From Chiridota heheva (taxonomy: Eukaryota > Echinodermata > Holothuroidea > Apodida > Chiridotidae): a stretch of DNA of 64,000 nt. Each line of letters starts with the position of its first letter. The first letter of the stretch is position 1. A model generated the notes under the pieces. That model worked only from the letters and a program-made list of their open reading frames with translations. It had not been told where the DNA came from and made no database searches. Both the position numbers and the translations under genes were made by a program. The DNA lies in NCBI GenBank assembly GCA_020152595.1, contig JAIGNY010000077.1:361501-425500 (forward strand). The letters are read 5' to 3'. Positions 5,401 through 14,400 of the stretch are shown here, in pieces.

Positions 5401-8400
5401 AGTCACCCAATAATAGGAGCTTGTCTTGCTGTGGTGTTTGTCGAAGAGTTTGTGTTAGAAGAGAGTAGAATTCCCCCTTAGCTTCTGCTGTGTTTGTCAA
5501 GGTAGGAGCACTGATAATTGAAAGGTGGTGATTGGCTGTGAGAGGTATTCTGAGTGACATGATTCTATCACTTATGGCATTTGGTCCTTAATTCCTCTAG
5601 GTTCTTCAGCAGGGCAGTCTTGATGACAATAGGAACTCCTCATGTTTGCTTCCATCTGGTTTTCCGCTTCAAAAGAAAGTGAACTCTTTATCTGCCACAC
5701 TACCGCTATCCAAGTATTTTGTCTCATTCAGCAGCTCAGGGCAGCTATATCAATTTGATATCTGGACAACTCACTAGCTATCAGAGCAGTGCGTCTTTGT
5801 GATCTGTGCATGGAGATACCTGCACATGGTCTGTGACAGTCGTCGCGATCAAGCATTGTTCTCACATTCCACTGAGTGATTGTCAGGTTTCTTGTTTTAC
5901 TACGTCCTAACTTACTTCTCATTGACCCTCGGAGCGTAAGGTGATCAGGTGATTCATACCAAATTACGTCATCGTCATTCTTGTATATGATTGGCTGAAG
6001 AAAAAAATCTGTAATGGCAATTCTGGGCTGCAGAAAATAAAAGCGCCGCCTTGGTAAATAGGTGTCAAGTTTATCCAAGCTTTTGCCATTGCTAGGCGTA
6101 CTCTCTCGGTAGATCCTGCGATGATTCCTTCCGGCGTGAGCTGGTCACGAAAGGCTGGACCGATGACTACTGCAGTGGTTGGCCGGGAGTTCTGCAGTAC
6201 AGAATAAACTCCGACCATTAAGGAGATACCACGGGGCACCTAATGTTGAGCTGAGTGGCCGTTGACTCCACTAGGAGCTCATCCGACCTTTGACAGATTT
6301 TGTTTTTAGTTCTGTTGCGTGCTTAGCCACACATTCCTCACCAAGCAAGCATGGTGGGGGTGCCGGTGTAGTCGCCGATGGTCCGACCATGAACAAGTAG
6401 TACCGGTTTACTTGTTACCAGTAGCAGAATGCCTGCCTTACATGATGCTGTATAGGCCTATACATAATTTTAGGAGTCTCATATCATTAGGAGGAAAATT
6501 TGAAAAAGCCATAACCAATGGCGCGATAACCAAGTTTTGGATATGGAATTGGACTTTGCGAATAGGGCTAATCGATTAGGAAGGGGAGGGGAGGGGGTGC
6601 CTTGCCTGACTTGCCCCTGAATTCTGAATTCCATTCTGGCTATGGCACTGGACAAATTTGTTTACGACCAGGGACGAATTCAGATGGGATGGAGTGGGGT
6701 AGCCATAGGGTAGCCATGCTCCCTGAGATATATTTCCAGTGATTTTTTTTACCATTTTATAATTCTTAAGTTATGGTGTATGAAACATCATGCCACGGGA
6801 TTCAAATTCTCCGTATCTTGATAAGAAATAATTGTTTGCTTAATACTCGGTCCAGTATTGACTGAACTGCTGAAGGTCTGAATCTATAGGTTATCATGCT
6901 CCCTTGCATGCTTTAAGACCGTATGGAATTTTTCTTCGTTTTAGCGGGAATTTTGCAATCAGGAATGTGAAGTCCTCTCATCTTAAGTTTTCATCAACAT
7001 TGCCGCTAATATGGGAATTTTATTTCTTCAATTTTCGGGAAATTTTATTCAATTTTCGAAAAATTTCCTTCATTTTCAATTAATTTTATTGAATTTGCAG
7101 GAAAATTCCTCCATTCTCGGAAACTTGTCTTCAATTTTCGGGCGGCAATTTTCGGGCAATTTTCTTAGATTTTCGGGAAATTTGATGCCAATTTTCGGGC
7201 AATTTTTTCATTTTATACTTGTTCTTCAATTTTAGCAAGTTTTTAATATTATATTAATAATACCATGCAAACGGGAAGGGGAAATGCTTTCAGATGGGGA
7301 ATGCTTTCAGATGGGAAATGCTTTCAGATGGGAAGGAGCAGCCCCACCCCTATTTACCACGCCTCTGATTTCTGGTTTGATATGGCTTGGGGAGGCAGTC
7401 CCCCCTCGCCTCATTTGCTACGCCTCTGACCTCTGGATTGGTGTGGCTTGGCCTCCTGATATTTTTACCTCAGTGGCTCCACCCTTGTTTACAACAAATC
7501 TACATTTATTCCCCGGATCCTCCGCCAATTTTCTCCTGCATTCTTCTTGCCATATGTGGTATTAGTTTATTTTTTTATTTATGTTTTACTTTCCATAAAA
7601 CGCATTGTATATATATATATATATATATATATATATATATATATATATATATATATATATATATATATATATATATATATATATATATATATATATATAT
7701 ATATATATATATCCAATTCATTTCGCACAATATTTCTACACTTGCGAATGCCAACCTTTAAATTGTTTCAAAGGATTAATTCAGCGGTCAAGCATGTCCA
7801 TCTTATATAAAAGAGGACTTCAAAAGAAACAAAATGGTGAAAAAAGCATTCAAAAATCTTATTCCGTCAAGGAGATATTCAAGTTTAAACTTTGGTATCA
7901 CTTCTGAAGAAACGACTGAAATCAGACAGTTGTGACATCACATCCTCAGATTCCTCAAAATCTTGATGTATTTAAAAAAAAAATAATCTTATTTTTTCAC
8001 TATTTAAATTGTTTTTCTTTTAACTTTCTTCAGGTGGTATATTATAAATAGACGGTCAATATGTGGTGGAACCCCCAAAAAAATTTGATACAAAGGGTTT
8101 TTCAACTGATTTTGGTATATTTTGACATACTTTACAACATACTAAAAATCTAGTAAATTCTGACCTTGGGAAAGGGGTGGTTTTTAAAATAGCGTCCAAA
8201 ATGGCCGCCAGGAAGTAAAACTAGTACATATCTCAATTGTTATTCAACCTAGAAAAGTGATTTTTGTGGCTAATCACATGTTTTATGGGGCAAACAATCC
8301 ATTAAAATTAGTTTAAATACTAAAAGTTAATCATAACATACCAAAATCTAGTAAAATTCAACTTCTAGAAAGGGTAATTTTTAAAATGGCGTCCAAGATG

Positions 8401-11400: not shown

Positions 11401-14400
11401 GATCTGCTATTTTCATGATTATTAGTTCCTTGGCAACTTTACCATGCTTTGGTAGTTCAGCCACAGCTTACTTGTCTTGGACCTAACACTCACTTCCATT
11501 TTCTGTTTGCTTAAGCTTAGTTTTACTTCCTAGATTCAGTTTTACTACATTTTTGGCATATCCCATGGTTTATACGCCACAAAATCGCAGGACAAAACAT
11601 GATAGAATACATAAAGACCTTGAGGAATCTGAGGCTATGACATCACAACTAGTCTGATTTCAGTCGTTTCTATACAAATGATACCAAACTTTAAACTTAA
11701 ATATCTCCTTAACAGAATAAGATTTTTGAATGATTTTTTCACCATTTTGTTTCTTTTGAAGTCCTCTTTCATATAAGATAGACTTGCATGACCCCTGAAC
11801 TAATCCTTAAGCATCGCTGGATATCATAGGCATACGCCGCGTGGGATGTTTTGTAAATAAATATGTTCTATTGTAGTATTAATTTTCTTTGCATGCACTA
11901 AACAATTATTAAAAGCAGCGGTGCTTTTTTTGTTTTTTGTTGTTGTTGCAATTTCACTGAAATGATCAGGATATCTTTACATTGAAAACTCCCTGATTGA
12001 CGTCATAATGGCCCAAGTTTGAGAGAAGAGTTACATGCAAGTAACTTCATTTGCTCTTTTTATCTTCAGTTTTGACGGGCATTGACTTCAAGAACAAGTA
12101 CGTCATCGTGAATTCAATGGGGCAACAGGTCTACTATGCATACGAAGGTAACGTGAGTCAATAGCTACAAGCAATCTTGGACAAAACTGTTGAGACACTC
12201 ACTGGAAAGTAATTTTAAATATTTATGTACAGCTATTTTCAGCCCCCCCTTCCTTCTCCGTTTTCCCTTTCAGTGTTTGTTGCGACAAAGAGTTTTGTCC
12301 AAGATTGTAGTATGGGGAATGGGACAATTATAGGGGTGTAGGAAGCTTTTGAAAAGCGGGGCACAACCTCTTAGTGGGGACTCCCAAGTCACATACATAT
12401 GCCCCCAATCTGTAGGTACAATTAGTGAGCCAAAACAACATAGTAAAAAGTGCACTTCTAATTTTTTAGAAAGGGGCACTTTTTCAATGGGGACTCATTT
12501 CCCTGTACAGGGGACTGACAAATATATCAGTAGATAGAATTAATGAGCGACACGCAACAAACTGATAAAAGCATGCTGTCCATGACTTTTATAAAAGAGA
12601 AATATTGGGCAAGTTTGTTATCTTTAAAGAAAAGTCAGGGAACATGCCCAGTTTTTCACTGATAGCTGTCCATGGCTTTTATAAAAGAGAATTATTGGGC
12701 AAGTTTGTTATCTTTAAACAAAAGTCAGGGAACGTGCCCAGTTTTTCACTGATAGGTCAGTAATTAAGTGATTAAGGGGCACTTTATTTTTAAAGGGGCA
12801 CTTTATTTTTAAAGGGGCACTTTTGTAATATCATTTAAATAGTGTACGCACATTTCTCCAGTTCTTACTCCTGTGACAGTAATTAAGGAGAACTTTTCAT
12901 TTTCAAAAGGGGCACTGTTGTCAGTTTTTGGAAAAGTGGGGGTGGCACGTGCCTCTGTCTTCCCGAATCCTACACATATATGGGAAATTACGCCGGCCTC
13001 AGATTTTCTTCCACTAATATAATAGGCTGGCTATTGGCCTATAAAGCCTGATGCGACTACCTTAACCCTTACTCAGCGGCGATATTATCGCCGTTTTGGG
13101 TGCCCCGTCTTTGGCCCCGCCTCCCGAGCGCATTTTCAAAAAAGTGCTGGTAGAGTAAGGGTTAATGAACCCGCGGCATATGCGCCAACCCGAAAATATA
13201 GGCAGCATGATCCCGGTGGGCGGGCCAGCGGGTCCCGAAAGCGGAAGGGGGGCGACTCTTCTGCCTGGAAGACAGAGGACCCTTCAATAACCACGCCTTA
13301 ATTAACCCTTACTCTACCACGCGGCGATATTATCGCCGTTTTGGGTGCCCCGTCTTTGGCCCCGCCTTCCGAGCGCATTTTCAAAAAAGTGCTGGTAGAG
13401 TAAGGGTTAACTGCCTAATGAAAATGGCTGAATGGTGCCCAGGTATATCTTTTTTATCCGTGAATAAACCCCGACCAAGGAGGTACTACCTGACCGCCAT
13501 TCTTTTCTTCATCTAACTGGGCGTTATCCAGAAAGTTCAACTAAATCATGGCAGATAACAGCGAATCAGTTTAAAGTGGTCGCCACATTTTACGCGAAAT
13601 AGAGCTTTTAGGATGTGACCCCCTACAAGTGGCGGCGCTACAAGGGAGCAACCCCCATGAGTTATTTTTCCAAAGACTTTCGGAGCGCGGATTAATCATC
13701 ATGACTTAATTTGCAACATGTTGTTCTCAGGCTATTATGTGATTTTCTTTTTTCAAACAATCCTTTGGTATCATTTGTCCACACATAGAGTCTGGACTAT
13801 GCATGAGAATTTGCTGCAAGGGCGCCAGGAGCTTCATCATGCACATTGTCGACAATGCCGGGCAGGTAAGATGGAAAAATTCCCCTGCCGTTGGGGTTTC
13901 TAAACCCGTGACCTCGTCGGGGAACAAAAAGGAAAACATTGAACATCACTGGCATACTGTTCTTTTTAAACCCCTATCACGGAAACTAGTCACCCGTCCC
14001 TCCGCGGTTAATTGCCCCGTCCCTCCGCGGTTAATTCCCAAAGCCTTGTACCCTGCCAGCCTGCTATGTATTGGTTTTGTATGATCTCATATCATTTGGC
14101 ACAGGCGCTGCCATAAGTGAGGGGCGTTGTCGAAAAATAATTTCACAGATTTTATGACATGTGTTTTGGTCTTGATAAACCCAAAGCTTTTCTGGTGGTA
14201 TGGGCAGTTGGGAGAGGGGGGGCGGAGGGGTGCTCTATATGCCCTTTTTTTTACAGGAGGAATAGATCGTTGCCAGTTACACGTCAAACGCACGTACTTC
14301 CTGAAACCTAATACACCCCTCTGTACAACTGTAAAGATACTTTACAAGTAAGGCCTATAGACTGGAATAGACGTAGGCCCAGCGCTTTCTGTAGGATCGG

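Follow-up and report, generated by a model that had tools for sequence, protein, structure and literature searches.

A terminal inverted repeat element and its short copies

We analysed a 64,000-nt stretch of the genome of the holothuroid Chiridota heheva (GenBank assembly GCA_020152595.1, contig JAIGNY010000077.1, positions 361,501 to 425,500 of the forward strand), referred to below as the window. It contains an element of 4040 bp that is bounded by inverted repeats and carries the relic of a gene on its minus strand (Table 1). The inverted arms match over 157 nt (positions 7771-7927 versus 11652-11808) with 90% complementarity, and a blastn comparison widens them to the limits given in Table 1 (88.7% across 203 columns). 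Hence, the inverted-repeat unit of about 4 kb with ends of about 200 bp that had been described in the original prediction was borne out. The sequence AAAGGATTA is exactly present at the start of three of the six ends that we aligned, while the other three deviate by one or a few bases; all six termini align with TTCAG.GGTC.

Table 1. Features of the element and of its short copies in the window.
Feature	Position	Strand	Remarks
Whole element	7770..11809	-	4040 bp; gene on minus strand; extent based on the alignment of six ends
Left terminal inverted repeat	7771..7972	+	3' end of the gene side
Right terminal inverted repeat	11606..11808	-	5' end of the gene side
N-terminal remains up to IEQTLMRS	11150..11566	-	Several frames; from translations
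Coding segment (48-residue and 11-residue stretches)	10865..11338	-	From translations
Nested foreign DNA	10190..10830		Degenerate 20-21-bp repeat (GAAAATGAAGGAAATCTCCC) and GGGGTGGGGA array; outer limits drawn by eye
Nuclease-like blocks LDGGS-VFDG-GADVD-GEDTD-TGCD..GVGKK	9280..10151	-	FEN1/XPG resemblance by eye
Cysteine-rich C-terminal end (with a 12-residue stretch)	8750..8932	-	
Short copy M1	1219..1807	+	589 bp; internal boundary almost coincides with that of M2
Short copy M2	29349..29888	+	540 bp; element ends directly adjacent, inner 3.5 kb missing

The short copy M2 aligns with the gene-strand positions 2-290 and 3766-4050 of the element, and M1 aligns with positions 42-289 and 3766-4046 (71-84% identity to the element). 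The inverted repeats and the subterminal stretches of both sides are common to M1, M2 and the element, and the internal boundaries of the two short copies coincide to within about one base. We considered whether the ends might belong to unrelated sequences nested by chance, a finding that would have spoken against the proposed transposon; since M1 and M2 each carry both subterminal regions, the ends of the element form a single unit. That this pair of ends recurs together in both short copies supports the assignment of the element to the DNA transposons with terminal inverted repeats.

M1 and M2 are contiguous without the open reading frame (ORF), and a second ORF-bearing copy was not seen within the 64,000-nt window. 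Both observations would be in keeping with a nuclease-like ORF that derives from an unrelated element or gene piece and landed inside a non-autonomous element of 550 bp. We consider such an origin quite improbable, because the two short copies resemble deletion derivatives of the ordinary kind, because the recognisable ORF relic (LWLNYQSM; position 11466) starts about 60 bp inside the 5' part shared with the short copies (to position 11526), and because no second pair of ends surrounds the ORF among the longest 25 of the 95 inverted pairs in the window.

A constant-length target duplication, the presence of which had been suggested as a check, did not emerge: an offset scan of lengths 2-12 yielded no duplication of at least three bases without mismatch that was common to the element, M1 and M2, copies that differ by 16-29%. 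Exact flank matches of 4-5 bp were present in single copies at differing offsets, among others TTAA (element), AAAT (M2) and TTTA or CTTTA (M1); the M1 match adjoins the ends.

Several further repeats are found in and around the element. A 21-nt direct repeat (CTTCAGGTGGTAAATTAT..., 90%) occupies positions 8028-8048 and 11370-11390; one of its copies lies where the short copies have their internal boundary (position 8050), and the other falls within the relic of the N-terminal coding region. The repeat may be a trace of the way in which the internal part of the short copies was deleted, or it may have arisen by chance. Within the noncoding 3' portion of the element (positions 8136-8590) there are two stretches, about 197 bp apart, whose cores are of the AAAATGGCGTCCAAGATGGCCGCC type and agree at 87% over 38 nt. 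Near position 8516 lies a more weakly similar sequence related to the neighbouring repeat. The AAAATGGCGTCCAAGATGGCCGCC-type stretches could be subterminal binding sites. Additional fragments resembling the ends of the element (72-74%) are present at positions 31996-32067 and 37831-37937.

The protein relic on the minus strand

The read-through of the coding region, which we joined by eye, is interrupted by seven in-frame stops and changes frame ten times, once across the nested insertion, and the window contains no unbroken stretch that covers more than part of the nuclease-like region. On the minus strand, IEQTLMRS (position 11173) is followed by 10-residue segments at positions 9908 and 9798, by GADVDIV (9604), and then by segments of 10 (9537), 15 (9358) and 12 residues (8890). 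The motifs thus occur in the order originally read from the sequence, albeit in differing frames.

A possible start is represented by MGYAKNVVK (position 11566). Upstream of IEQTLMR, about 100 codons can be recognised when counted from the shared 5' part (to position 11526), or about 130 if translation starts with MGYAKNVVK. The nested foreign DNA (Table 1) contains arrays at positions 10269-10331 and 10408-10680, and the length of the element without this insertion is about 3.4 kb. The degenerate A-rich repeat of 20-21 bp is found at three sites of the window, namely inside the element (positions 10357-10786) and at positions 7022-7244 and 34943-35038.

At its C-terminal end, the relic is indeed rich in cysteines, but the likeness to a CXC domain that had been attributed to this tail did not carry over to profile searches, in which the 62-residue tail gave no match to a CXC/TCR profile up to E=10.

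Nuclease-like blocks in the middle part of the relic

The middle part of the relic contains five acid-bearing blocks (Table 1) whose order and rough spacing resemble, by eye, those of the FEN1/XPG 5' nucleases, with D15, the flap endonuclease of phage T5, as the reference. The distances between the blocks are about 37, 65, 22 and 60 residues in the element (taken on the DNA and across frame changes) versus 40, 62, 24 and 48 for the blocks matched by eye in T5 D15. After the motifs had been seen, we wrote a chain of loose patterns that allows for spacings of this kind. This chain fits the element, and it was found in none of 2000 dinucleotide shuffles of positions 8700-10160, in none of the 282 tile-and-strand combinations from the rest of the window, and in none of 414 from the other loci that had been fetched. 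As a positive control, the chain was applied to the T5 D15 gene, where it detected three of the five blocks only and missed T5 blocks 4 and 5. Hence, the pattern chain shows that the set of motifs is non-random, but not that it represents a FEN1/XPG nuclease.

Searches of Pfam, NCBIfam and PDB sequences with the decayed read-through as the query gave no match to XPG, PIN, FEN1 or CXC entries, and neither XPG_N nor XPG_I was found with this query in Pfam up to E=10. The weak Pfam rows M64_N, DUF5004 and Cadherin_5, the NCBIfam row MksE, and PDB rows for reverse transcriptase with E values of about 1 were taken as chance matches. What stands of the PIN/FEN1-like nuclease suggested previously is therefore a series of five blocks that follows the order and spacing of T5 D15 by eye, whereas a profile match is missing and the pattern chain reached three of five blocks on T5. 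The element furthermore differs from T5 D15 and from FEN1/XPG enzymes in that the blocks are accompanied by a cysteine-rich tail and are situated inside a transposon. From its motifs, it is plausible that the middle part of the protein was a nuclease of the FEN1/XPG type.

Searches for relatives of the element

Peptide-pattern searches of the viral_contigs collection matched 14 and 7 stretches, none of which was confirmed as a relative. Degenerate versions of the motifs yielded four IEQ loci in viral_contigs as well as one VFDGY locus in viral_contigs and 13 in genome_contigs, while the degenerate TGCDTT pattern was found in neither of these two collections. We rejected the 18 IEQ/VFDGY loci as relatives; tblastn with three pieces of the read-through produced five weak rows, the best with 25.8 bits and an E value of 0.22. 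Phages, compared with one 91-aa piece, and plasmids, compared with one 94-aa piece, gave no match. The peptide strings of the element were not found in a literature search, and neither was a paper naming both Academ and XPG, although a paper containing just those two words would escape this search, nor one combining at least four of the terms Academ, DNA transposon, superfamily, XPG and CXC.

The predicted DDE core and the length of the copy

No DDE motif was seen in the element, and the one DDE motif of relatives with which we searched the window had no match at up to two mismatches, a weak test on decayed DNA. In full-length relatives of the element's protein, we take the DDE core to be located upstream of IEQTLMR, and the E of this motif is presumably the last acid of the core. 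Once the nested insertion is subtracted, the element measures about 3.4 kb, as compared with a mean of 5565 bp for the curated bivalve Academ elements (n = 100 in that library, according to the available text of PMC10294476), so that, in the simplest reading, about 2 kb including the DDE core have been lost. The element would then be an internally deleted copy, with the DDE core largely missing from the region that holds its N-terminal remains (Table 1).

The original prediction had named the nuclease as a candidate for the transposition chemistry, a view under which the FEN1/XPG-like enzyme would serve a transposon family truly devoid of a DDE transposase. The nuclease-like blocks and the lack of a visible DDE motif in this copy agree with such a family. 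However, FEN1/XPG enzymes are flap cutters that are not known to join strands, and the copy is both decayed and short upstream of IEQTLMR. A superfamily that joins a DDD/E transposase and a nuclease has, moreover, already been described, the transposase in the available parts of PMC9587614 and the nuclease-bearing AcademX lineage in those of PMC10045372. A nuclease acting in place of a DDE transposase is thus unsupported, and we regard this family as highly improbable. It is likewise scarcely to be expected that the element represents a lineage that truly lacks the N-terminal DDE core and moves either by the FEN1/XPG-like nuclease alone or by means of a DDE enzyme provided in trans. A true absence of the core would signify a new kind of transposition enzyme, but nothing in our data requires it.

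Probable relationship to the Academ superfamily

The nuclease of AcademX transposons is XPG-like. KDZ transposons, to which the element was also compared, are large eukaryotic elements with terminal inverted repeats; an XPG-like nuclease is not a known feature of KDZ elements.

Academ is listed among the superfamilies with a DDD/E transposase in PMC9587614, and both PMC10294476 and PMC9004415 class it as DDE/D, as far as the accessible portions of these papers go. From the corresponding portion of PMC10045372, AcademX elements encode a nuclease and are flanked by duplications of 3-4 bp, while AcademH elements encode a helicase and are flanked by duplications of 9-10 bp, a difference that seems to be tied to the encoded helicase and nuclease; a RecQ helicase is mentioned for Academ in the text available from PMC3627910. 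The element resembles AcademX in being a DNA transposon with terminal inverted repeats, a feature of Academ and AcademX that is present in the 4040-bp sequence, in its putative nuclease, an enzyme that AcademX encodes and for which the element offers motifs, and in belonging among long elements (PMC10045372 and PMC10294476, parts available). It differs in having neither a visible DDE core nor a 3-4-bp duplication common to its copies, both of which could be the result of decay. AcademH belongs to the same superfamily but carries, by the same portion of PMC10045372, a helicase and longer duplications, whereas the read-through of the element has no Pfam helicase match.

We also weighed another DDE superfamily with a nuclease of its own, be it KDZ, a variant of Kolobok or an undescribed one. 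The XPG-like nuclease of AcademX fits the element better than those of Kolobok. The accessory nucleases of Kolobok lineages are diverse, which lends this alternative some support, but those named in the available text of PMC9587614 are lambda exonuclease-like, DEDDh and His-Me finger enzymes, with no XPG-like one among them. For KDZ, the read-through had no match to a transposase profile among the Pfam families up to E=10, although this copy may have lost its catalytic region. Taken together, membership in such a different superfamily appears unlikely.

We therefore favor, with fairly good confidence, the view that the element derives from an Academ-superfamily DNA transposon of an AcademX-like lineage, of which it would be a dead copy with an internal deletion; the failed T5 positive control reduced this confidence by a small step. 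This view is built on what is generally known of the superfamily and on the anatomy of the element. The intact protein would have consisted of a DDD/E (RNase H-like) core, whose last acid probably is the E of IEQTLMR, followed by an XPG/FEN-like nuclease and by a tail that is rich in cysteines and binds DNA. Cutting and joining at the inverted ends, in a cut-and-paste fashion, would be the task of the DDE core, and the nuclease might serve in an accessory role, for instance by trimming flaps or by cutting the other strand. Short copies of 540-589 bp with the same ends could be mobilised in trans. To our knowledge, the role of the pairing between a DDE transposase and a nuclease has hardly been tested. 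If the element does belong to AcademX, it adds a further relic to a superfamily in which such a pairing occurs, a fairly ordinary finding as the group has already been described.

Other sequences in the window

Stretches resembling phospholipid scramblase exons (Pfam PF03803) are present at positions 12072-12146 on the plus strand (E = 0.00025), close beside the element, and at positions 40750-41151 on the minus strand (E = 1.5e-05), with both scores below the curated cut-off; they point to a host genome of the animal type. Reverse transcriptase fragments (RVT_1) at positions 35642-36292 and 41127-41816 appear to be LINE-like.
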